NCBI RefSeq assembly: GCF_018390695.1
Contig: NZ_JAHBGF010000003.1
Coordinates: 1 to 64,000, forward strand
Origin: Ancylobacter sonchi
Lineage (GTDB): Bacteria > Pseudomonadota > Alphaproteobacteria > Rhizobiales > Xanthobacteraceae
Length of the DNA stretch: 64,000 nucleotides
Direction of reading: 5' to 3'
The notes beneath the pieces are model-generated. The model was given only the letters and a program-made list of their open reading frames with translations. It searched no databases and had not been told where the DNA came from. This document shows, one piece after another, positions 284-63,553 of the stretch. Within the stretch, counting starts at the first letter, position 1. Each line of letters starts with the position of its first letter. The translations under genes and the position numbers were made by a program.

Positions 284-304
284 TGGCTCCCTGAGCAGGA
301 CTCG
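284..304. repeat. attL core (21 bp)
   Basis: Sequence identical to 63478-63498, which is the 3' end of tRNA-Asn including CCA. The identity stops immediately on both sides. This copy sits between the IS fragment and the first phage gene and marks the left prophage end. Confidence 0.9.
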
Positions 305-16893: not shown

Positions 16894-17135
16894 CGCGCCC
16901 CGCCCTTGCGAAAGTGCGCCAGCACCTGCATCCGGATGGCCGACGACAGGTTGGTGTTCTCGCGCTTCGCGTCGATCTCGGCGACCAGGTCGGAAAGCGT
17001 CCGCTTCGCGCCGGCGGCGATCTCCTTGATCGCCTCCCAGAACGGATCCTCCAGCGAGACGCTCGTCTTGTGCCCGCCGATGACGATGGAGCGTTTCACG
17101 ACCGCGCTCCCGGTCGATGAGGTTCCCGCGGTCAT
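16890..17135 (-). CDS. Ribbon-helix-helix protein (RHH_4 type)
   Basis: An 81-residue protein. KRSIVIGGHKTSVSLEDPFWEAIKEIA followed by a helix with RTLSDLVAEID and then SSAIRMQVLAHF is the RHH_4 pattern: a short beta strand for DNA contact, then two helices. These proteins act as small transcription regulators in alphaproteobacterial genomes and phages. The ATG overlaps the stop of the XRE gene. The protein may regulate a phage or host promoter. Confidence 0.8.
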   Translation of the reverse strand: MTAGTSSTGSAVVKRSIVIGGHKTSVSLEDPFWEAIKEIAAGAKRTLSDLVAEIDAKRENTNLSSAIRMQVLAHFRKGGAR

Positions 17136-17518
17136 TCCGCGGCCTCGGCGGGCTGGAAGGCCTTGGCGATGGCGTGGAGGGTCCGCAGCGTGCTGGCGCG
17201 GGCGTTGAGCGGCATCGACATCACCATGCGCGCGCATTCCAGCGCGTGCCGATCCGTGATGCAGGTGAGCGACGGCTCGCTGCTCTCGCCGAGCCCCTCC
17301 AGCAGTTGTGCCGGTGTGGTACCCAGCTCGCGCGAAATCGGGATCAGCGTGCTTGAGGCGACGCGATTGGTACCGCGCTCGTATTTCTGGATTTGCTGGT
17401 AGGAGATGCCGAGGCGTTCGGCCAAGGTCTCCATACTTAAGCCCGCCTGCATGCGAGCGGAGCGCAGGCGGCGCCCGATCTCGATGTCCAACAGGCGGGT
17501 GCTTTCGATGCGAGACAT
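17132..17518 (-). CDS. XRE-family transcription regulator
   Basis: A 128-residue protein with a classical helix-turn-helix at residues 10-68 (GRRLRSARMQAGLSMETLAERLGISYQQIQKYERG). The C-terminal part is a helical dimerisation-like segment with no peptidase. It is in the leftward operon rather than next to the operators, so it is a secondary regulator rather than the lysogeny repressor. Confidence 0.8.
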   Translation of the reverse strand: MSRIESTRLLDIEIGRRLRSARMQAGLSMETLAERLGISYQQIQKYERGTNRVASSTLIPISRELGTTPAQLLEGLGESSEPSLTCITDRHALECARMVMSMPLNARASTLRTLHAIAKAFQPAEAAE

Positions 17519-17773: not shown

Positions 17774-18037
17774 TCAAAAGGGAATGTCGGGATCCTCGAA
17801 CGCCGCACATGCCGCGGTGAGGAGCGGAAAGCGCGGGGTGACATCGATCGGCACCGTCACGACCGTGCGGTGAACGCTCATGCTCACGGTCTGGAGCACG
17901 AAGAATTCGATGTCGGGAAGGGACTTGGCGAGGCGCTTCGCCTCGGTGTCGGCGCTCTCGAAGGACTTGTGCCGGACGGTCGGCGCGCGCTGGCCGACGC
18001 CGTAGACCATCCAGAAGGGGGAGGGCTGACCAGCCAT
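17774..18037 (-). CDS. Hypothetical phage protein
   Basis: An 87-residue protein starting MAGQPSPFWMVYGVGQRAPTVRH, with a pattern KSFESADTEAKRLAKSLPDIEFFVLQTV that looks like a small alpha/beta fold seen in other phage proteins. The ATG shares one base with the stop of the upstream gene. Confidence 0.6.
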   Translation of the reverse strand: MAGQPSPFWMVYGVGQRAPTVRHKSFESADTEAKRLAKSLPDIEFFVLQTVSMSVHRTVVTVPIDVTPRFPLLTAACAAFEDPDIPF

Positions 18038-18546
18038 CACGCAGCCCTCGCCTGCATCGCAAGGCGGGTCGTATCGACCTTGTACCCGCGGTGCCAGTTC
18101 GTAGCGTAGCGCGCGGCGAGCTCGGCCAGCTCCAGCGTGGGCTTGTCGCCATGGATGTCGAGCCGCATGTGTTCGGTCTCGCCGCGGCGCTTGCCCCAAC
18201 GGTGTTCGACGCGTCGGGTGAGGACGATCCGTTCGGAGACGCCGGCGGGAACGCCAAAGGCTCGCAGGCGCCGGCCCAGCAGGACATCCTTGGCGGCTGT
18301 GAACCTGACATCGCGCCGCGCATGCGCCGCGGCGGAAGCGATCTTCACGAGGATCAGCGGGGCCGCGCCGCCGCCGATCAGAAACTCACCATCGCGGCTG
18401 AGCTCGTCGATGGCGTGGTCGCGGTCGTCTCGCTCAGGGAAGGCAGCGGCGATGGTGCTCTGCGCGTAGGGCAGCGGGCGTCCATCGTCATAGAGGTCGA
18501 CCAGCGTGTCGCCGTCGACGTGGAAGTGGCCGGGAAGGCGCGGCAT
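18037..18546 (-). CDS. First gene of the leftward operon, function unknown
   Basis: A 169-residue protein, MPRLPGHFHVDGDTLVDLYDDGRPLPYA... The ATG at 18546 is chosen because GGAGAG lies six bases upstream; an earlier in-frame ATG is at 18558. The C-terminal half is rich in Arg and contains RRVEHRWGKRRGETEHMR, so nucleic-acid binding is possible. Being first after the operator region, it should be among the earliest proteins made after induction. Confidence 0.6.
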   Translation of the reverse strand: MPRLPGHFHVDGDTLVDLYDDGRPLPYAQSTIAAAFPERDDRDHAIDELSRDGEFLIGGGAAPLILVKIASAAAHARRDVRFTAAKDVLLGRRLRAFGVPAGVSERIVLTRRVEHRWGKRRGETEHMRLDIHGDKPTLELAELAARYATNWHRGYKVDTTRLAMQARAA

Positions 18547-18655
18547 GTCGCTCTCCATCCAGACGACGGCCGCCCGCTCCGGGTGGCTCTAGGTGGGGGG
18601 ACGCCAGGGCTGGCTTCCGGAGCGGGCATCGCCGCGTCGTGCTGCGATGGAGATA

Positions 18656-18706
18656 TGAAAGCAAATCTTTCAATCTGACGCAAGCGAAATGAAAGTAAAA
18701 CTGTCA
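18656..18706. promoter_or_regulatory. Two repressor operators at the leftward promoter
   Basis: TGAAAG-CAAAT-CTTTCA lies at 18656-18672 (perfect inverted repeat) and TGAAAG-TAAAA-CTGTCA at 18690-18706 (one mismatch), with 34 bp between their centres. The same pattern occurs twice in the repressor/cro intergenic region. These lie upstream of the gene at 18546 and its 18-kb operon. Confidence 0.8.
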
Positions 18707-18741
18707 TTGGTGTGCGTGGGCAGGCGAAGCGCCACCCGAGC

Positions 18742-18778
18742 GGCTGCCACGAAGCAGCCTTGGTTGGAGCCCGGCTCC
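18742..18778. terminator. Paired hairpins between lipoprotein gene and leftward operon
   Basis: GGCTGC-cacgaa-GCAGCC (18742-18759) is followed by a GGAGC/GCTCC palindrome (18766-18778). The pair lies just downstream of the lipoprotein stop on the minus strand and could limit read-through into the leftward operon. There is no strong T run, so the call is weak. Confidence 0.3.
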
Positions 18779-18829
18779 TCTAACTCGGCCCCCTAGGCGG
18801 CCTCTTTGCAAGCTATCGGCGGTGTGTCG

Positions 18830-19519
18830 CTATTTGTTCGAGGACGGAGCGACCGTCATGCGGATAACATGCACGTCACCGCCGAACGGGATTCTTACCT
18901 GGTAATCATGCGGGTTAGCCCAGCCGCCGCGTCGATCGAGATCGACCACCACCATGCCGCCAACGCATTCGCCCGGCATTACAGTGTTGTCGGCCAGCAT
19001 GGTGTTCTCATACATCGCTACATCTACCGCGCCGCGTGCGAGCGCGCCGGCGGCAGCGATATTGGCCGACGCCGTCGCGCTTGCATCCACGATGTTGTTG
19101 GCGGCCGGAGTGCTGTAGGTCGGCGAGTTTATCTGGACCAGCGCGGCCGAAGTGGCCGCGCCGACCGCTGCGGCCAAGATGGCGTCGGTCCGTGCCTCTT
19201 GCTGCAATTGGGCACGGTTCCATACCTTAAGTGGCGCTCCGTCTCCACCGGAAGCCGTGATGTCGCCATACCGAAACGTGATCGGTGTCGGCGAGCGATT
19301 ACACAGCAGCGCTATCAACGTCGGGCGTTCCGCGGGCCCCGCGGGTTTCTTCATCACCATCGCGACCTCGGTATGGCCTTTGTTTGAAACAAGCCCTGGC
19401 CGGCCGTTACGTACCAACTCCGACTGTCCCGCAGTCGGCGAAAAGGTCGTCGTTTGTGTCGTCACGCATCCGGCGAGTGCTAGCCCGATGCCGATGATCA
19501 CGATTGTCTGATTGAGCAT
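18830..19519 (-). CDS. Lipoprotein, probable lysogenic-conversion gene
   Basis: A 229-residue protein with a signal peptide MLNQTIVIIGIGLALAGC ending in an LAGC lipobox, so it should be lipid-anchored on the outer or inner membrane facing the periplasm. The mature part is soluble, beta-rich, and has an Ala-rich centre (about 110-160). The ATG at 19519 has GGGGGTG before it; a TTG four codons upstream is less likely. It sits beside the repressor in the same direction, where genes expressed in the lysogen are usual. The function could be surface modification or exclusion. Confidence 0.75.
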   Translation of the reverse strand: MLNQTIVIIGIGLALAGCVTTQTTTFSPTAGQSELVRNGRPGLVSNKGHTEVAMVMKKPAGPAERPTLIALLCNRSPTPITFRYGDITASGGDGAPLKVWNRAQLQQEARTDAILAAAVGAATSAALVQINSPTYSTPAANNIVDASATASANIAAAGALARGAVDVAMYENTMLADNTVMPGECVGGMVVVDLDRRGGWANPHDYQVRIPFGGDVHVIRMTVAPSSNK

Positions 19520-19648
19520 GTTCACCCCCAAGCCGTGCCTGCCTTACCCAGCTGTATTTCAATCGGGCACTGTCGTTTCGTCAAACAGTGCAAGCAGCTG
19601 GCGGTCGTTCGTTTCGGCGGGAGTGCGGCCTTGCCGCGTCGAAATTTT

Positions 19649-19663
19649 GTTCTTGATTTGTTC
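19649..19663 (+). promoter_or_regulatory. LexA (SOS) box, exact alphaproteobacterial consensus
   Basis: GTTC-TTGATTT-GTTC matches GTTC-N7-GTTC exactly and contains a TTGATT that could serve as a -35 element. It lies about 60 bp before the start of the small rightward gene at 19725, and no other gene starts are near it on this strand. Confidence 0.75.
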
Positions 19664-19724
19664 CAATCCAAGAGTCATCGTGAATGAAGCATCAAAGAGA
19701 AGTTCCGGAAAGGCATGTCTATAC

Positions 19725-19964
19725 ATGCAAAGCGGAATTATGCATGGAGTGGTCGCAGATATGGCAAGTGATGAGTATGCCTTGCGTCAAATGGCGGCGC
19801 GCATCGCGGCAATCTTGCCACAGGATCGAGGGCAGGCTGTTCGTGTGTTGCGCCTATCCGAAGAGTTTATGACGGATTTTCTTCTGGATCAGGCTGAACG
19901 GCGGCCTCGTTTGGCAGAAATCAGCACTCTGGTCAGGACTTCCGGCGAACCGGCCAACACATAG
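19725..19964 (+). CDS. Small SOS-linked protein, candidate antirepressor
   Basis: A 79-residue helical protein (core DEYALRQMAARIAAILPQDRGQAVRVLRLSEEFMTDFLLDQ). Upstream is an exact LexA box and nothing else. Downstream its 3' end overlaps the convergent 3' end of the repressor gene by 76 bp, so its transcript is also antisense to the repressor. LexA-controlled antirepressors in this place are known in phages 186, Gifsy and others. In-frame alternative starts are 19740 and 19761, and none has an ideal ribosome site. The assignment as antirepressor is inference from position and regulation. Confidence 0.55.
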   Translation: MQSGIMHGVVADMASDEYALRQMAARIAAILPQDRGQAVRVLRLSEEFMTDFLLDQAERRPRLAEISTLVRTSGEPANT

Positions 19965-20398
19965 GTGGCTGGAAGGCCGGTCGCGATGGCAATCCGGTTC
20001 GCCGCGATATCGCTAATGCCGTCGGTGCCACCGACGATAGATGCCCACTCATCATCATCGACCCGGAGGAAGCTCTGCAGATCTATGTCGTAGGCTTGCT
20101 CGATTAGTGCGACACGTCGCCCAGCGGCCTCGCTGTCGATACCAACATACTGTGATAGTTCATCTGTGGACGGTAGCTCGGGACTTGTGTCAGCGCGACC
20201 GTCAGGACTGTTCCCCGACAGCCAGTCCAAGGACCGACCAAACCGGTCAGCAATGGAGAGCAAATTCTCCGTCTTTATGCCTTTGTCGTGTTCCCAATTT
20301 CCGACGGCGCCGCGGCTAACGCCGAGTTGTTTGGCGAACTCAGCCTGACTAAGGCCGGCCTCCTTCCGGATAGCTAAAATGCGATTCCCGACGGTCAT
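19889..20398 (-). CDS. CI-like lysogeny repressor (XRE, no S24 peptidase)
   Basis: A 169-residue protein with a helix-turn-helix at 1-60 (NRILAIRKEAGLSQAEFAKQLGVSRGAVGNWEHDKG) and a C-terminal helical domain. There is no cleavage site or Ser-Lys pair of an S24 peptidase, so it should not self-cleave upon RecA activation. Divergent to a cro-like gene, with operators between. The start is taken at the ATG 20398, the first helix of the HTH following it directly; a longer form from the ATG at 20452 would place one operator inside the gene. Confidence 0.8.
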   Translation of the reverse strand: MTVGNRILAIRKEAGLSQAEFAKQLGVSRGAVGNWEHDKGIKTENLLSIADRFGRSLDWLSGNSPDGRADTSPELPSTDELSQYVGIDSEAAGRRVALIEQAYDIDLQSFLRVDDDEWASIVGGTDGISDIAANRIAIATGLPATYVLAGSPEVLTRVLISAKRGRRSA

Positions 20399-20401
20399 AT
20401 G

Positions 20402-20418
20402 TGAAAGATCGCCTTTCG
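20402..20418. promoter_or_regulatory. Repressor operator next to the repressor start
   Basis: TGAAAG-ATCGC-CTTTCG, a 17-bp inverted repeat with the same form as the operators at 18656 and 20457. It lies only four bases before the repressor ATG, so binding here would act on the repressor's own transcription or ribosome access. Confidence 0.75.
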
Positions 20419-20456
20419 GTGCTTTCAAATCACCGACAGAAATGCTTGCCATTAGA

Positions 20457-20473
20457 TGAAAGTTATGCTTTCG
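20457..20473. promoter_or_regulatory. Repressor operator at the cro-side promoter
   Basis: TGAAAG-TTATG-CTTTCG. It ends eight bases before the ATG of the cro-like gene and covers a possible -10 element (TATGCT, 20464-20469), so a bound repressor would block the rightward promoter. A half-site lies between it and the first operator. Confidence 0.75.
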
Positions 20474-20480
20474 ATTGCGC

Positions 20481-20693
20481 ATGAGTGATGCACTGTCGAT
20501 AGCGAAAGAGAGAGCCGGCGGAGCCGTTGGTTTGGCCCGGCCGCTCGGCATTTCGTCCCAGGCTGTGTCGCAATGGCGGCGAGCTCCCGCGAAGCATGTG
20601 CTCAACATCGAGCGCGTGACAGGGGTGTCGCGCCACGACCTTCGGCCCGATCTCTATCCACGCGAGCCCTCCCAGCAGGGAGCCGCGTCGTGA
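20481..20693 (+). CDS. YdaS/Cro-type regulator
   Basis: A 70-residue protein with the YdaS/Cro pattern: AGGAVGLARPLGISSQAVSQWRRAPAKHVLNIERVTGVSRHDLRPDLYP. In other phages such proteins act as Cro, opposing the repressor. The ATG has no ribosome site and stands about 12 bases after a TATGCT, so the mRNA may be leaderless. It is the first gene of the rightward operon. Confidence 0.8.
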   Translation: MSDALSIAKERAGGAVGLARPLGISSQAVSQWRRAPAKHVLNIERVTGVSRHDLRPDLYPREPSQQGAAS

Positions 20694-20989
20694 ACCTCGC
20701 CTCGTTTCTCGCCGACCTCGCCACCGGCGCCACGCTCTGGGCCGGCGGCGCCTTCGCGCTGTCGACGGTTCGTAAGCGCCGGGCGAGCCGGCGCAGGCAG
20801 CTGATCCCCGCCAGTCGGTTCATGCTGGTTCCGCGGGACGGCAGGCCGCGCATTGAGATCAGCTTCGATCAGGAGATCTCGCTCACCCTATCCGGTCGCG
20901 GCTCGCATGCCCCTCAACCACAGACGGAACCGTCGCCGACGGCTAGCGATCTCCGCCGTCTGGCAAATAGCTCCATTCGGCGACGGTGA
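20690..20989 (+). CDS. Hypothetical early protein, 99 residues
   Basis: Starts with GTG at 20690 in a GTGA overlap with the cro stop, and GGGAG lies nine bases upstream. The N-terminal part has a hydrophobic segment (FLADLATGATLWAGGAFALSTV) followed by RKRRASRRRQ, so one membrane anchor with a basic cytoplasmic side is likely. The rest is beta-like, then a Pro-rich tail. No known family. Confidence 0.6.
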   Translation: MNLASFLADLATGATLWAGGAFALSTVRKRRASRRRQLIPASRFMLVPRDGRPRIEISFDQEISLTLSGRGSHAPQPQTEPSPTASDLRRLANSSIRRR

Positions 20990-21186
20990 TCAGCACGATG
21001 GCGCACACTCCCGACCCCAAGCGGCCCCGCAAGACGGTTCCTCTGTCGGCCTTTCCTAAGCTGCCACCGCTGCAGGTGTCTTTTCAGTCGCCAGTGAAGG
21101 TCGACTTCGAAGAAGCCATCAGGTCCCTCAGGAGCATGAAGCTCAACCGCCGTCATTTCGGATTGCCTGAGAGACCGCTGAAATGA
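20986..21186 (+). CDS. Small basic early protein
   Basis: A 66-residue protein from the GTG at 20986 (GTGA overlap with the previous stop). It is Pro- and Lys-rich at the start and ends in a helix DFEEAIRSLRSMKLNRRHFG. The 3' end overlaps the convergent gene at 21143 by 44 bp. No function is apparent. Confidence 0.5.
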   Translation: MISTMAHTPDPKRPRKTVPLSAFPKLPPLQVSFQSPVKVDFEEAIRSLRSMKLNRRHFGLPERPLK

Positions 21187-21421
21187 TGTCGGTAACGCGA
21201 ATTGCCGCGAGCTCTCGGACTGTTTGTCGGTCACTGATGCCGACGCCGTTGATGGGTACGTGGGGCAGGATATCTTGTCCGTATTGTTCGATTTTCCGGA
21301 GTATGTCGTCCTTTTCATCGACCGAGACCGGTATCGCCTTCAGAAAGAGCTGCAGGGCCATTACGAGCACGGCCGAGGTCGCCGTCTGTTCGGCAAGAAG
21401 TCCAAGTTCTATCCGGGTCAT
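21143..21421 (-). CDS. Hypothetical protein on the reverse strand inside the early region
   Basis: A 92-residue protein, MTRIELGLLAEQTATSAVLVMALQLFLK..., mostly helical, with GGAG seven bases before the ATG. It reads against the early operon and overlaps the end of the previous gene. Its direction suggests that it is expressed in the lysogen, or it could be an inserted moron. No family recognised. Confidence 0.55.
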   Translation of the reverse strand: MTRIELGLLAEQTATSAVLVMALQLFLKAIPVSVDEKDDILRKIEQYGQDILPHVPINGVGISDRQTVRELAAIRVTDIISAVSQAIRNDGG

Positions 21422-21462
21422 GTTTCATCTCCGTGCGGGGCGTTCGTGCGGTGGTGAATGGG

Positions 21463-21486
21463 GATGGACGGTTCCAGCCGTCCATC
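21463..21486. promoter_or_regulatory. Nine-base-pair hairpin in the 276-bp early gap
   Basis: GATGGACGG-ttccag-CCGTCCATC. It lies in the gap between the reverse gene (start 21421) and the rightward gene at 21698, which otherwise holds no gene and only the second repeat below. It may stop transcription from either side or act as a regulator site; no T run follows. Confidence 0.4.
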
Positions 21487-21655
21487 CTCGCCATTCTGCC
21501 AGCACCCGCGGTGGCAGCCGCCGGTGCTTGAAGGCTTTCCCCATATTCATTCCGACCGGTCTTTCGTCCCGGCCACCTCTGGCGCCCGTCCCCGCTGTCA
21601 ATGTCGATGGTCGGGCGCCGATCCTTCATTCCCGTCGGTCTCCTCTGTCCATGCC

Positions 21656-21697: not shown

Positions 21698-22099
21698 ATG
21701 GCAGATTCATCCATCGGCGATGGACAAATGATCCATCTCAAGCCCCTTCGTGACGAAGAGTACGCCGCGGCGCTGGTCATCCGCCTCGAGAAGTCCGAGG
21801 CCGAGCGCACGGGGCTGCCAGTCTCCGAGGTCCGCCCCATCGTTGCCCGGCGGATCGGCCTCGCCGTCGGCACGCTGGAGAACATCCGGCGCCGGCGCAT
21901 CAAGGCGATCAAATCCCATGTCTACAGAACGCTCCTGGCGGCCGCCGACCGGTGGCTCTGTGCCGAAATCGCCATGCTCGAGCACGAGCGAACTGTCATT
22001 GCGGCACAAGCTCGCGACGGCTCGACACGCGACCTGGCGGAGGTGGATGCGCACATTGCGGCGGCTCGTGCCGCGCTGGGCACGGAGGCGCGCCGATGA
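21698..22099 (+). CDS. Hypothetical helical early protein
   Basis: A 133-residue protein. Residues 20-65 (RDEEYAAALVIRLEKSEAERTGLPVSEVRPIVARRIGL then GTLENIRRRRIKAIKSH) look like a helical DNA-binding unit, and the C-terminus is a long helix. The next gene starts by ATGA overlap. The start is the ATG at 21698, whose ribosome site falls in the stem described above; the ATG at 21728 is the alternative. Confidence 0.6.
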   Translation: MADSSIGDGQMIHLKPLRDEEYAAALVIRLEKSEAERTGLPVSEVRPIVARRIGLAVGTLENIRRRRIKAIKSHVYRTLLAAADRWLCAEIAMLEHERTVIAAQARDGSTRDLAEVDAHIAAARAALGTEARR

Positions 22100-24045: not shown

Positions 24046-25019
24046 CTGGCCGGATCCTACCTAATCTGCTCAACCCGCTCTATCAGCCGGAGGTGGTGCC
24101 GTTCCCGGCGCCGGCGCGGCGCGGCCCGCGGGAGAAGCTGCCGGAGGCAGCACTGCGCGAGGCCTTCGAGGCCGACCGCTCCGATGCGGAGATCGCCGAG
24201 GCGTTCGGTTGCTCGCGCCAGCTGGTGGCGCAGAAGCGCTCGAAGCTGGGTCTGAGGAGGCGGGAGAAGGCGGACGCCAAACGCGCGCCCAGCCGCTTTC
24301 AATCGAAGGTCGCGACCGATCGCGCCGCGCGGCTGCCGCCGGTCGACCACCCCGCGCTGAGCGAGGAACGCACCATCTACCCGGCGACGGTGACGGCGGT
24401 CGATGGCCTGCCCAATGTGCTCGTGTCCGCGGCGAACCATTGGAAGATCGGCGGGCGGATCGCCAAGGGCGCCTGGAGCGGCTTTCCCGTCTATGCCCTG
24501 ACGCTTGAGGAGCGCGCCACCTGCCCGGACAGCTGCCGGCATTGGCGCAGCTGTTACGGCAACAGCATGCATTTCGCCAAGCGGCTGCAGCACGGCCCGG
24601 CGTTGGAAGATCGGCTCGAGCATGAGCTCGCCATCCTCCAATCCCGCCACCCGGCCGGCTTCGCGGTGCGCCTTCACGTGCTCGGCGACTTCTATTCGCC
24701 GGCCTATGTCGCGCGCTGGGCGGGGTTCCTCGACCGATTTCCAGCCCTGCACGTCTTCGGCTTCACCGCGAGGATCGACGCGGCTTCCGACCCGATTGCC
24801 TTGGCGCTCGTGCACTTGGTGCTGGAGCGCTGGGAGCGCTTCGCCATCCGCTTCTCGAATGCGCCTGTCGACGAATGCTCGACCGTCACCGTCGAGCACC
24901 CGCGCCAGGTGCCGGCCGACGCCGTGCTGTGCCCGCAGCAGGTCGGCAAGACCGCCTCCTGTTCCACCTGTGCGCTGTGCTGGCAAAGCCGCCGACGCAT
25001 CGCCTTCCTTCAGCATTGA
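24042..25019 (+). CDS. GP88-like phage protein
   Basis: A 325-residue protein. The first 90 residues are basic with a small helix-turn-helix-like segment (SDAEIAEAFGCSRQLVAQKRSKLGLRRR). The rest matches the phage GP88 family: NVLVSAANHWKIGGRIAKGAWSGFPVYALTLEERATCPDSCRHWRSCYGNSM, then a RLHVLGDFYS segment and a C-terminal CSTCALCW. The Cys arrangement suggests metal or Fe-S binding. No activity is established for the family. Confidence 0.65.
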   Translation: MTGRILPNLLNPLYQPEVVPFPAPARRGPREKLPEAALREAFEADRSDAEIAEAFGCSRQLVAQKRSKLGLRRREKADAKRAPSRFQSKVATDRAARLPPVDHPALSEERTIYPATVTAVDGLPNVLVSAANHWKIGGRIAKGAWSGFPVYALTLEERATCPDSCRHWRSCYGNSMHFAKRLQHGPALEDRLEHELAILQSRHPAGFAVRLHVLGDFYSPAYVARWAGFLDRFPALHVFGFTARIDAASDPIALALVHLVLERWERFAIRFSNAPVDECSTVTVEHPRQVPADAVLCPQQVGKTASCSTCALCWQSRRRIAFLQH

Positions 25020-25028
25020 GGTGCCGCC

Positions 25029-26405
25029 ATGACGCTGACGATGGAGGCCTGGGAGCGGGCCTATATGCGATTCCGCGCCGCGGTGAGCGAGGACGAGCTG
25101 TTCAGCTGGTTCGGTCGCATGGAGGTGCAGCGCATCGCCGGCATGACGATCGAGCTGTCGTTTCCGACGCGCTTCCTTTGCCGGTGGGTGAGCGAGCGCT
25201 ACGACGCTCGTCTGTCAGCGGCCCTCGACATGGAGTGTCCGGGTGCCGGCATCCGGTATGTGACGCGGGTCATTCGGGCGCCGGCGGTCATGCCGGCGGC
25301 GACGCTGGCCACGGTGGCGATAGAGCCGTCGTCGACGGTTGACGTGCCCGCCACGCAGAAGGCGTCGGTCGGAGCGCCGCTGGATCCGCGCTTCGTCTTT
25401 TCATCCTATCGCCTCGGCGACGCCAACCGCCTCGCTCAGGCGGCCGTGGCGAACGCTGCGACCGGCCGGGTGGCCTTCAATCCGCTGTACCTCCATAGCG
25501 GGATCGGTCTCGGCAAGACGCATCTGGTTCAAGCCCTGGCGGCAGCGGTCACCGGGCAGGGCCGTCGAACGGTCTATCTCGTCGGCGAGCGCTTCGCGTC
25601 CGACTTCGAGGCAGCGCAGCGGGCCCGGGCCGAGGGCGCTTTCAAGGAAGCGGTACGCGGCGCCGACCTGCTGGTGATCGACGATCTCCAGTGGCTTCAG
25701 GGGCGGACGGCACAGAGGGAGTTCGGCTTCACGCTCAATGCGTTCATCGACGCCGGCCGGCAGATCGTGCTCACGGCCGATCGGCCGCCCGTCGACCTGG
25801 GCTTGGAGGATCGGGTGCGTTCCCGGCTTGCTGGCGGGCTGGTGGTGGAGATCGAGCCCTTCGGCGAGGACCTTCGCCGGGACATCCTCATCGCCCGGAC
25901 GGCGACGCTGGCAAAGCACCATGCTGGCTTCGCCGTGCCGAGCGCGGTGCTCGAGTTCATCGTGAGGCAATGCGTCGACAACGGACGGGATCTGGATGGC
26001 GCCATCAACCGGCTGCTCGCGCGTCAGCAATTGTCCGGCGAGGCCGTCACATTGGAGATGGCCGAGCTCGCTCTGCACGACCTCGTCCGCTCACCAGAGC
26101 CGAAGCGGGTGCGGGTCGACGACATCGTGCGTGTGGTCGCCAAGCACTACAACGTCACCCGCGCCGACCTCCTCTCGCAGCGCCGCACCGCCAATGTGGT
26201 GAAGCCGCGCCAGATCGCGATGTACCTGTCGAAGACGCTCACCCTCCGCTCGCTGCCGGAGATCGGCCGGCGCTTCGGCGGGCGCGACCACACCACCGTG
26301 TTGCACGCGGTGCGCAAGATCGAAGGTCTTTGCGCCGGCAACACCGTCATCTCCGGCGAGGTGAAAGCCCTCACCGCCGTGCTCGCGGAAGGGATCGCCA
26401 CGTGA
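25029..26405 (+). CDS. dnaA: DnaA-type replication initiator, full length
   Basis: A 458-residue DnaA with all four domains. Domain I is at 1-80; a linker is at 81-120; the AAA+ domain has Walker A GIGLGKTH at 158-165, Walker B LLVIDDL at 214-220 and an arginine-finger segment RSRL at 264-267; domain IV ends with the DnaA signature [15 protein letters not shown] at 416-430. It should bind ATP and DnaA boxes and open an origin. A GAGGTG site precedes the ATG. Host DnaA is normally beside oriC; in a phage operon the protein may direct replication initiation to phage DNA or displace host control. Confidence 0.92.
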
Positions 26406-60361: not shown

Positions 60362-60694
60362 CTAACCTCGCAGCACCAGCACGATCTTCTCAAGGTCGTT
60401 GTATCCCGCGGCGACAACGGTCCCGCCCTCTACCGCGATGTAGTCGGCGCGGAAGCCGATCTTGACGGTGTCGCCCTTCTTCTTAACCGCCTCCCAAGGC
60501 TGGGGAATGAAGGCCGACCAGCCTGACCACGTCCGCAGACCCCCCGGCGGGTTCTCGGGTGCCATAATCCATTTGTCGCCATCCTTGGCGAAGCGGCGAT
60601 TTACGAGAGCATAGGGTTCCATGCCCGCTTCATGGGCGATTCCCCCTGACCAAGCCAGCGGGGCTTTCTTCGTTCCTACCGCGCGCGATACCAT
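60362..60694 (-). CDS. Hypothetical protein of the SOS-box cluster
   Basis: A 110-residue protein, MVSRAVGTKKAPLAWSGGIAHEAGMEPYALVNRRFAKDGDKWIMAPENPPGG..., compact and with many aromatics. It follows a zinc-ribbon gene with 19 bases of overlap, both downstream of the SOS box at 60882. The function is unknown. A shorter form from a Met at residue 25 is possible. Confidence 0.6.
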   Translation of the reverse strand: MVSRAVGTKKAPLAWSGGIAHEAGMEPYALVNRRFAKDGDKWIMAPENPPGGLRTWSGWSAFIPQPWEAVKKKGDTVKIGFRADYIAVEGGTVVAAGYNDLEKIVLVLRG

Positions 60695-60879
60695 TTCTGC
60701 GCGTCCCGCATGGTCATGTTGAGCCGCCTGACGTCGCCCCGGCAGCCCATCTCGCACCGGAACTTGTACGGCTCTTTCGCGCCAGGCTTGTTCATTTCGA
60801 TGAACCGACGGTCGGTGACGGCCCGATGCCCGCACGCAGCGCACTCAAGACAGATGACGAAGAACCCTAGCCCGACCAT
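60676..60879 (-). CDS. Small zinc-ribbon protein, SOS-box controlled
   Basis: A 67-residue protein, MVGLGFFVICLECAACGHRAVTDRRF ... KFRCEMGCRGDVRRLN, with four to five Cys that could form a zinc ribbon. An exact GTTC-N7-GTTC box ends three bases before the ATG, so LexA would block the start of transcription or translation. There is no ribosome site, and the mRNA could be leaderless. Confidence 0.6.
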   Translation of the reverse strand: MVGLGFFVICLECAACGHRAVTDRRFIEMNKPGAKEPYKFRCEMGCRGDVRRLNMTMRDAQKWYRAR

Positions 60880-60881
60880 GT

Positions 60882-60896
60882 GAACAGAAAGAGAAC
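60882..60896 (-). promoter_or_regulatory. LexA (SOS) box before the 60879 gene
   Basis: On the minus strand: GTTC-TCTTTCT-GTTC, an exact match to the alphaproteobacterial box. It lies right at the start of the small zinc-ribbon gene and between it and the SRAP gene. Confidence 0.75.
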
Positions 60897-60932: not shown

Positions 60933-61580
60933 CTAGGCCGCCGCGGGCCGCTCCACGACGACGACAGCATCGTCCGGAAGCGGGCGCTGGAGCGCCTTCG
61001 CCTCGCCCCACGGGGCGCGCATCCAAGTGTCCCGCTCCTCTGCCGTCGTCAGGATCACCGGCATCGCCTTGGTGTGGACGGACCCGACCACGGCGTTAGG
61101 CGTCGTTGTCAGGAAGCCGTAGAGGTCGGCCGTCACCTCGCCCTCCTTCAGCTTGCGAACGCTCGTCCACGACGTCCACAGGCCGGCGAAGAAGGCGAGA
61201 GGCTCATCCGGCGACAAGGCGAACCAAGACCAGGTCTCCGGCCCGCGTGCGCCGGCCGGGGGCTCCGAGAAGGACGTGAAGGGCACCAAGCACCGGTGCT
61301 CGACGCCGAGCCAGCGCCGCCAGTGCGGCGAGCCGGTGTTCCGGATATTCGTGATGCCCTTGTCCGTCTTCTTGCCCTCAATGGCGAAGGCGGGGGAGGG
61401 CATCCCCCAGCGGGCTAGCACGAGCTCACGCTCGCCGTCGGCGGCCGTGCGCACGATCGGCGCCGGATAGTCGGGATAGATCCCGGCTTGCGGGGCGAGG
61501 TTTCCAGCGCCATTGCGCAACGTCCCGACGAGGTCGGTGATCGCCTGCAGGTTCGAATGGTGGCTGTAGAGGTTGCACAT
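60933..61580 (-). CDS. SRAP (YedK/HMCES) family protein
   Basis: A 215-residue protein starting MCNLY, with the invariant Cys2 that forms a thiazolidine bond to abasic sites in single-stranded DNA. Further SRAP marks are [36 protein letters not shown] and [10 protein letters not shown]. It shields abasic sites or crosslinks and acts at replication forks. Located in the integrase cluster, next to an SOS box. The ATG at 61580 is fixed by the Cys2 rule. Confidence 0.88.
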
Positions 61581-61582
61581 GG

Positions 61583-61610
61583 CCGGCAGCGTATGACGCC
61601 CTGCTGCCGG
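61583..61610. promoter_or_regulatory. Hairpin just upstream of the SRAP start
   Basis: CCGGCAGC-gtatgacgccct-GCTGCCGG-type stem (8 bp), which begins three bases from the ATG. It could reduce translation of SRAP or end transcripts from the upstream gene; the stop of that gene is at 61613. Confidence 0.4.
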
Positions 61611-61612
61611 CA

Positions 61613-61834
61613 TCAATCGCGGGCCGCGCGCCATGTCTGGGAATAGCCCCGCCACCCGAACAGGCTGTCGCCGGATTCGATCAGCCGGTTGCCGAGGCGC
61701 CCGATGGTGGTGCGGTCGAGCTCTTCGTAGGGCTCTTCGAGCCACCACACCCGGCCGGCGCGGGTGAACATCATGTAGACCGGCTCGCCGGCCTCAATGC
61801 GGTCCTCAGCGGTCGCCTGGTTCGTCGATGTCAT
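61613..61834 (-). CDS. Small phage protein
   Basis: A 73-residue protein, [49 protein letters not shown]..., beta-rich at the start. It overlaps the neighbouring small gene by 29 bases. No known family. Confidence 0.6.
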
Positions 61835-62039
61835 TGCCGTTGAACCTGCTGGGTGGATCCGCCTCGGATCCGGCGGCGAAAATTATCGTGTCGCCCGGGG
61901 CGATCTCACGCCGGGCGCGCTGGTCCCATTTCCGATGGATGAAGTCCGGCCGGCCCCAGAGGCGCACGGCCGACAGGAATTCATCGCCGCGGAAGGCGAC
62001 GAAGTGCAGGGCAGGGGTCACGCCGTCGGATGCAGCCAC
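61806..62039 (-). CDS. Small phage protein next to the integrase
   Basis: A 77-residue protein with HFVAFRGDEFLSAVRLWGRPDFIHRKWDQRARREIAPGDTIIFA, a sequence found in many rhizobial prophages near the integrase. Its start lies 22 bases inside the integrase gene end. It could be an excisionase-like partner, yet no helix-turn-helix is visible, so this is not asserted. Confidence 0.65.
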   Translation of the reverse strand: MAASDGVTPALHFVAFRGDEFLSAVRLWGRPDFIHRKWDQRARREIAPGDTIIFAAGSEADPPSRFNGNDIDEPGDR

Positions 62040-63352
62040 GTGAATTTGATCCTGTCCAGCAGATCTTGGCGGCGCTTCATCTCCGGCCCGTCGCCATAGA
62101 GCGGCCGTCCGAACTCATGCCCCATCAGATCGGCCTGCATGCGGTCGGATGCGCCGGCATTCTCGATCCGGAACTGGAAGGTGTGCCGCAGCGAGTAAAT
62201 GGTGTGGCGGGGAGAAGGGCGCAGCTTGAGTGCCGTGATCTGCTTGTTGATCGCTGCCGAAGCGGAATCCGCGTTGTCGGCGTAGCGAGGGAAGCCTGCC
62301 GGCGCTTGCCGAAGTGCCCATAGCGCGACGCCGACGAGCGGGATGCGCCGGATGGAGTATTCAGTCTTCTGCCGGCGATCGTCCCGCTCGGCGACCTCCA
62401 CGTGGGGAACGGCATCCGCGAGCCGGATGTCCTGCGGGCGCAGGTTGCAGACCTCGCCCAACCGCATGCCCGTTTCGATCATGACATAGACGATGAGGCG
62501 CGCATTGAGGTTCAGGCTGTCGAGGGCGCCGGCGGCGAGAAAGCGGTCCTGCACCCAGTCGGGATTGAACATCGGCCGCTTGCGCAGCTTCGTCTTGTTC
62601 GTCTCGGGGAGCGACACTTTTTCCCACACCGCATGAAACGAGGTGCGCAGAGCGGCGTCGACGACCGCCAACATGCCCTTGATGTCGGTGAAGCTGCGGT
62701 TGGCGGTGTAGGCGCGCAGCCCCTCCGTCTCGACCTTCCCCATCCACCAGTCGCGAAACTTCAGCACCTCGGTGCGCGTGATGTCGGCCAGCCCGACGTC
62801 ACCGAGTTGATCCTGCAGATAGGTGAGGGCGCGCCGGCGGGAGGTCTCGTGCGCGGACAGCTGGCCGGGCGACATGCCTGCGAGCGCCGCCTTGCCGTGA
62901 GACGCGTAGAGCTCCCAGACCTCGCTGATGCGGGGATTATGCGGCGGCTCGGCGCCTAGAATGGCGGCGACTGCCGCGGGGTTCTTGATCGCGTCGCGAG
63001 CGTCGAGCGTGCGGGAGACAATCTCGTCGAGCGGTCCAGACAGGATCGAGGCGAGGGGCTTGTAGACATAGCCATAGGCCTGCGCGCGAGCGACGCGCTG
63101 GTCATGCTGGTCCCAGCTCTGGCGGGTGTCCTTGCCTTCAAGGAAGTCGCTCCAGAGGGCCTCGACGCTCTCGTGCACGCGCCGGGCGGTCGCAAGGGCC
63201 GTCTGGAGATCTTTCGTCTTCAGGCTGTGCCGGATGTGTGTCCGACGGTGCGCTGGATCTTGCGGGATGAGGGTCGGAATCCGGCGATAGTACCGATAGA
63301 CGCCAGTCCGCGGATCCCGCTTCACATAGCGATCAATGCCGCCGCCACCCAT
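62018..63352 (-). CDS. int: Tyrosine-family integrase
   Basis: A 444-residue tyrosine recombinase. N-terminal arm- and core-binding domains (about 1-220), then the catalytic domain: TGMRLGEVCNLRPQDI (first Arg), YSLRHTFQFR (Arg 389), LMGHEFG (His) and the nucleophile Tyr 419 in RPLYGDG. It would insert the phage at the tRNA-Asn gene. The ATG at 63352 has CGGGG upstream; the ATG at 63376 is an alternative. The open frame extends into the tRNA, which is not coding. Confidence 0.92.
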   Translation of the reverse strand: MGGGGIDRYVKRDPRTGVYRYYRRIPTLIPQDPAHRRTHIRHSLKTKDLQTALATARRVHESVEALWSDFLEGKDTRQSWDQHDQRVARAQAYGYVYKPLASILSGPLDEIVSRTLDARDAIKNPAAVAAILGAEPPHNPRISEVWELYASHGKAALAGMSPGQLSAHETSRRRALTYLQDQLGDVGLADITRTEVLKFRDWWMGKVETEGLRAYTANRSFTDIKGMLAVVDAALRTSFHAVWEKVSLPETNKTKLRKRPMFNPDWVQDRFLAAGALDSLNLNARLIVYVMIETGMRLGEVCNLRPQDIRLADAVPHVEVAERDDRRQKTEYSIRRIPLVGVALWALRQAPAGFPRYADNADSASAAINKQITALKLRPSPRHTIYSLRHTFQFRIENAGASDRMQADLMGHEFGRPLYGDGPEMKRRQDLLDRIKFTWLHPTA

Positions 63353-63477
63353 GCTGTGCCCCGATTTGTACCCCATTTGTGGCGGGATCTGTGCCGCATG
63401 ACAAGGGGTGTTTAGGGACCAGCGCCTTTGAAAGGCTTGCGGTGTATGGTGTCTGAGTGGTCCCTCGTAAGAGGGGG

Positions 63478-63498
63478 TGGCTCCCTGAGCAGGACTCG
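63478..63498. repeat. attR core (21 bp) inside tRNA-Asn
   Basis: Identical to attL at 284-304. It corresponds to the last 21 bases of the tRNA including CCA, so the tRNA remains complete at this end after integration. Confidence 0.9.
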
Positions 63499-63553
63499 AA
63501 CCTGCGACCATTCGATTAACAGTCGAACGCTCTACCAACTGAGCTATCAGGGA
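63478..63553 (-). tRNA. tRNA-Asn (GTT), CCA encoded
   Basis: A 76-base cloverleaf on the minus strand: acceptor TCCCTGA pairs with TCAGGGA, D-arm AGCTCAGTTGGTAGAGC, anticodon loop CTGTTAA giving GTT, T-arm GCAGG-TTCGAGT-CCTGC, discriminator G and CCA. It is the integration target of the prophage. Confidence 0.95.

Follow-up and report, generated by a model that had tools for sequence, protein, structure and literature searches.

How could a prophage without a self-cleaving repressor respond to DNA damage in its host? The question is raised by a complete prophage contained in positions 1–64,000 of contig NZ_JAHBGF010000003.1 of Ancylobacter sonchi (RefSeq assembly GCF_018390695.1), the start of a contig in a 5.8-Mb genome; this whole stretch of 64,000 nucleotides is called the window here, and all positions are counted in it. 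Our answer concerns the part at 18.65–20.47 kb, where a repressor gene and a small open reading frame (ORF; 19725–19964, plus strand) preceded by a LexA-type box are enclosed by repeated operators. On the features described below, the chances seem about even that this part works as an immunity segment of the lambda kind which carries its own SOS trigger, namely a LexA-controlled candidate antirepressor; for the small ORF itself, the likeliest role is that of an antirepressor.

The immunity segment of a complete prophage

The prophage is bounded by an exact 21-bp attachment repeat: the outer copy (284–304, plus strand), a duplicate of the 3′ end of tRNA-Asn, marks the left end, and the copy within the tRNA-Asn gene itself (63478–63498, plus strand; gene at 63478–63553, minus strand) marks the right end, beside an integrase (phrog_1, E 1.5e-24). 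A Pfam search of the genome for the self-cleaving peptidase S24 gave four matches, none of them in the window and, judged from its sequence, the prophage encodes no self-cleaving repressor of a known type. Because the prophage is complete and lacks an S24 protein, any response to DNA damage would need another route. Across the genus, the DNA of the region gave just short matches of 44–115 bp, in 6 of 29 other genomes.

The immunity repressor (19889–20398, minus strand; 169 amino acids, aa) had been described, in an earlier sequence-only reading of this DNA, as a protein with a helix-turn-helix (HTH) and without S24, and this agrees with its match to HTH_3 (E 1.6e-14) and the absence of a match to Peptidase_S24. 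For the last 95 residues Pfam yields nothing at E ≤ 0.5, and the C-terminal part is helical in a low-confidence predicted model. Divergent from the repressor gene runs a Cro-like gene of the YdaS and P22 Cro families (20475–20693, plus strand; YdaS_toxin E 8e-16, P22_Cro E 2.5e-7). On the left, upstream of the leftward ORF 18037–18558 (minus strand), lie an OL-like operator (TGAAAGCAAATCTTTCA, 18656–18672, with an exact GAAAG-N5-CTTTC at 18657–18671) and a second one with one mismatch (TGAAAGTAAAACTGTCA, 18690–18706); on the right lie two OR-like operators, TGAAAGATCGCCTTTCG (20402–20418, exact at 20403–20417) and TGAAAGTTATGCTTTCG (20457–20473, exact at 20458–20472).

The window holds three copies of the palindrome GAAAG-N5-CTTTC where 0.04 would be expected, and a search of the whole 5.8 Mb for TGAAAG-N5-CTTTC gives three sites, none of them outside the immunity region (four rows in the genome listing, one site being read on both strands), with none for the reversed control. 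This is a lambda-type layout, with repeated operators on either side of the repressor gene and Cro divergent; presumably it is the repressor, rather than Cro, that binds the TGAAAG operators. They flank the repressor gene and the small ORF on both sides, and since the ORF with its LexA-type box is enclosed by those on the left (18.66 kb) and those on the right (20.40 kb), it would be an SOS-box gene inside the immunity segment.

The LexA-type box and the small open reading frame

The box (GTTCTTGATTTGTTC, 19649–19663, plus strand) falls into the space that separates the repressor gene from a lipoprotein-like gene (MLNQTIVIIGIGLALAGC..., 18830–19519, minus strand; read from the sequence). It is present as the exact GTTC-N7-GTTC that had been noted earlier, although the bare pattern is weak evidence: its frequency in the window is near chance (3 matches where 1.62 would be expected), and genome-wide there are 102 against 61 for the reversed control. 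A scoring matrix was derived from boxes that precede SOS-type genes in this genome, with sites partly hand-picked. Among the genome matches listed, 18 regions holding 21 boxes were picked by eye, largely for T-rich spacers; 14 boxes (12 distinct sequences) formed the matrix, which for a test against 300 windows was enlarged by the recA box and by one close to the best S24 match (assumed to be lexA), and five (those of L022, L025, L029 and L036, and the minus-strand box of L031) were excluded because no plausible SOS gene was recognized behind them. The names uvrA, comM, ruvC, rmuC and dnaE2 are putative and were read off the sequence, and a radical-SAM protein and the RecA of a relative were identified by Pfam match. 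With 24.5 bits, the box at 19649–19663 has the top matrix score in the window (training boxes span 18.2–24.9), a score attained by none of 300 Markov windows of 63 kb, and its spacer has a probability of 0.000175; as the training regions were chosen by eye for T-rich spacers, this probability is somewhat circular and the null-window comparison slightly generous. We take the LexA box of the host to be of the alphaproteobacterial type.

The assignment of the box to the small ORF, as proposed in the sequence-only reading, needs a correction: the box sits before the ORF (62 bp from the box end), but it also stands 130 bp upstream of the start of the divergent lipoprotein-like gene. An argument from box orientation, by which the small ORF would be the proven target, was considered and rejected, given that the recA box of the same genome is reversed relative to recA; orientation thus cannot choose between the two genes.

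The small ORF spans 79 aa, with further in-frame ATGs at 19740 and 19761 (67 aa from the latter), and both its position opposite the repressor gene and its 76-bp overlap with that gene, pointed out before, are confirmed. Its product had also been called unfamiliar; it matches nothing in Pfam, PHROGs, NCBIfam or PADLOC at E ≤ 1. Single-sequence structure prediction yields a helical hairpin (helices 8–30 and 35–73) with a mean predicted local distance difference test score (pLDDT) of 69. A fold search with this model gave 10 viral models at E ≤ 10 and none at E ≤ 0.001, and no PDB entry at E ≤ 10; a sequence search of the PDB gave four matches, unrelated, with a best E of 0.77. The size of the ORF and the predicted hairpin suit a protein-binding antirepressor.

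A more specific origin, a SinI-like hairpin cut from the C-terminal tail of an XRE protein such as that encoded at 17132–17518, was tried and rejected (hhalign probability 0.1, P 0.47, with the small ORF and its paralog compared against an alignment of XRE proteins). The gene at 17132–17518 (minus strand) is a second XRE regulator, situated in the leftward gene group; it has a match at E ≤ 1e-10 in 58 of 61 relatives' genomes, mostly over the HTH, and the tails are alike in most of the 29 other loci read.

When the small ORF was searched in 296 family genomes at E ≤ 0.01, a single match in a short frame came up: the paralog, a weak relative situated in the same genome (C13:773243–773470, minus strand). 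The two align with 42% over 38 residues (E 0.0018 in a one-genome search) at 33.5 bits, against 20.8 for the best of 2000 shuffles. The paralog adjoins a divergent XRE gene in a second phage-like element with a virion structural protein and a primase (L076, G000:C13:763000–782000). As a query it found no further relative at E ≤ 0.001 in the 296 family genomes, nor any in phages or viral contigs. With a two-row profile of ORF and paralog, searched in 397 genomes of the order, both own-genome copies score strongly; matches in five other genomes (E 0.002–0.006) were judged by eye to be unrelated frames and discarded. Through this relative of the small protein, cross-talk with the second phage element of the cell might be possible.

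A candidate SOS switch and its alternatives

The proposed switch would work as follows. In the lysogen, the HTH repressor would occupy the TGAAAG-N5-CTTTCA operators at both ends of the segment and keep the leftward and rightward operons silent, while LexA on 19649–19663 would silence the small gene. The repressor appears to have no domain for self-cleavage. Upon DNA damage, RecA would make LexA cleave itself, and the small helical protein would be produced, bind the repressor and remove it from the operators, so that both operator regions would be released; Cro and the early genes would then turn on. The operators, the repressor class, the S24 absence, the LexA box and the ORF position are sequence-based parts of this scheme; the operator-binding protein, LexA binding, translation of the ORF, repressor binding and induction are what we infer.

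The damage-induced antirepressor of the sequence-only reading is supported in part, by the complete prophage free of S24, the convincing LexA box, the lack of a family match for the product and the position of the ORF between operators; the box is shared with a divergent gene. With the gene between the operators, specificity and trigger would travel together. It is possible, though somewhat doubtful, that a single 1.8-kb cassette unites the repressor and the operators with a LexA-driven antirepressor representing a new helical-hairpin type, by which a phage could trade its self-cleaving repressor in a single recombination and stay SOS-inducible.

Related prophages were found through an early gene used as a probe (21728–22099, plus strand), which has matches in 5 other genomes of the 296 at E ≤ 1e-8 (regions L084–L088). 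An S24 repressor is present in two of the five, L084 (the closest, from the same genus) and L087; L088 has a 301-aa HTH protein without an S24 match, and L085 and L086 have short HTH-like proteins without S24, their HTH matches lying below the Pfam cut-offs. LexA-type boxes above 13 bits are absent from L084 (14.4 kb), L086, L087 and L088; L085 has three, of which two precede recA and the third, at a distance from the immunity genes, precedes a small SOS-type gene, so that no related prophage (0/5) has such a box among its immunity genes. The closest relative, with its S24 repressor and without a box, speaks in favor of the proposed switch, and the comparison, five prophages being a small sample, fits an exchange in the present prophage of a cleavable repressor for a repressor plus a LexA-box gene.

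Among phage records, the repressor found to be most closely related is that of Labrenzia phage vB_LagS-V1 (PP058680.1; 43% over residues 2–105). This phage (V1, 39 kb) likewise has an HTH repressor without an S24 match, a divergent Cro-type gene and the same operators at equivalent places: the best match (24113–24129, 21.4 bits) lies just upstream of the leftward operon, and the next three (13.2–13.6 bits) include those at 26139 and 26111 beside cro. As the holder of the nearest repressor has the same operators, they seem to go with this repressor type. V1 differs in having no LexA box above 11 bits in its immunity segment (the best in its genome, at 19943, has 14.0 bits) and no relative of the small ORF, with an annotated plus-strand gene of 236 codons near the OL-like site instead.

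Several results weigh against an SOS-triggered antirepressor. V1 itself, having the same operators and a non-S24 repressor and lacking a strong LexA box, implies that the module is not general to this repressor type, and the two related prophages with short HTH proteins have neither S24 nor a LexA box of their own among the immunity genes. For the small ORF, tblastn searches of 50,697 phage records, 72,556 plasmids, viral contigs and genome contigs turned up no relative; in the 296 family genomes, besides the window and the paralog, there are just four matches, inside long frames of three genomes. The paralog as query does not retrieve the small ORF at E ≤ 0.001, nor is it preceded by an exact LexA box; two matches with one mismatch each lie within the XRE gene. 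The codon score of the small ORF is matched by 18 of 65 shadow ORFs (15 of 65 with the start at 19761); that of the neighboring Cro gene is just slightly higher, in a scoring trained on 17 stretches of which one (62021–63500) was misframed. A simple scan of 18600–21500 found no promoter-like site on either strand.

The box might instead control the divergent lipoprotein-like gene, a possibility that also counts against the proposed switch, or the small ORF might serve the SOS response in a way unrelated to the repressor, for instance in division or repair. We regard this as rather unlikely. The 130 bp from the box to the start of the lipoprotein-like gene fall within the 17–245 bp that separate box start and presumed target at other boxes; in addition the recA box is reversed, several small LexA-box genes of unknown role occur in the same genome, and the second strong box of the prophage (60882–60896) precedes another small ORF. 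The start of the small ORF is nearer to the box, however, and no SOS link is seen at the repressor if the small ORF is set aside. Alternatively, the effector could be a transcript: starting from the LexA box, an antisense or read-through transcript across the repressor gene would lower repressor synthesis and might reach cro and the early operon. The small ORF does run opposite to the repressor gene and overlaps it, its codon score is no higher than that of the 18 shadow ORFs, and there is no plus-strand terminator-like site between 19964 and 21263 in a simple scan, to which Rho-dependent ends are invisible. Existing repressor would still need to be lost or diluted, though, which would presumably be slow, and the paralog, with its weak but similar protein sequence, points to a protein; such a transcript therefore appears improbable as the trigger.

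It would also be conceivable that the ORF is no gene and the box a chance match, the prophage being either not SOS-inducible or induced otherwise. The near-expected frequency of the bare pattern, the lack of homologs of the small ORF in the phage, plasmid, viral-contig and genome-contig collections and the promoter scan would agree with this, but the matrix score lies above those of all 300 simulated windows, and the box is placed both in a gap between two genes and between operators, which makes chance a very improbable account. An SOS-triggered antirepressor remains the reading that we prefer for the small ORF.

Other genes of the prophage and comparison with known systems

The lipoprotein-like gene, the possible alternative target of the box, lies between the repressor gene and the OL-like operators, a place that the rex genes occupy in lambda, and may be expressed in the lysogen. 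Its product matches neither a Pfam family at E ≤ 0.5 nor a PADLOC model, and its two NCBIfam matches are far below the cut-offs. The second strong LexA box (60882–60896, minus strand) has 22.2 bits, equaled by one match in the 300 null windows, and directly precedes a 67-codon ORF with CxxC-type cysteine pairs (MVGLGFFVICLECAACGH..., 60676–60879, minus strand), for which PHROGs, NCBIfam and PADLOC gave no match. The ORF beside this box at 60933–61748 (minus strand) we take to resemble SRAP (YedK/HMCES); an NCBIfam scan gave no match. Elsewhere in the genome, two small gene families with LexA boxes recur (MAKKTFYIVQPFEAGKRGAIKAG... and ...DADVDDAIAACGGDARETVRTLLIAG...; L020, L021, L030, L032 and L033), and in L020 and L021 the small LexA-box genes are divergent, with one box each.

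LexA-controlled antirepression is best known from enterobacterial phages. The lambda immunity region resembles the present segment: its left and right operators enclose the repressor gene along with additional genes, and Cro is divergent; it differs in that the lambda repressor cleaves itself, whereas the present one lacks S24 and has a LexA box inside the segment instead. In the open-access literature (subscription journals being mostly outside it), titles and abstract openings among the matches listed describe no antirepressor under LexA control that is located within an immunity segment or comes from Rhizobiales; one of these matches, a paper on alphaproteobacterial phages (PMC9437464), contains the words LexA and antirepressor.

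According to PMC3121763, the Gifsy prophages of Salmonella encode small LexA-controlled antirepressors (GftA, GfoA and GfhA) that act on repressors which are not cleaved, and a Gifsy antirepressor alone was shown to induce the prophage; the same text names Tum of 186 and AntC of N15 as LexA-controlled antirepressors and calls prophages with non-cleavable repressors widespread. The present prophage is similar in combining a candidate LexA-controlled small protein with a repressor without a cleavage domain. No tie between GftA, GfoA, GfhA, Tum or AntC and the small ORF emerged via Pfam, PHROGs and NCBIfam (E ≤ 1) or tblastn against phages, a comparison made through these libraries rather than by direct alignment. 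Tum, as described in PMC3121763, has 146 aa with a DinI-like second half, compared with 67–79 aa and no family match for the present ORF. If the proposed switch is correct, it would help to account for DNA damage responses in prophages whose repressors cannot be cleaved, and the exchange of cleavable repressors for antirepressor pairs among phages would become testable. The Gifsy antirepressor genes lie outside the immunity region, whereas the present ORF lies between the operators: the logic of LexA and antirepressor would then recur here with an unrelated protein, inside the immunity segment, and in a host with a LexA box that is presumably of the alphaproteobacterial type.
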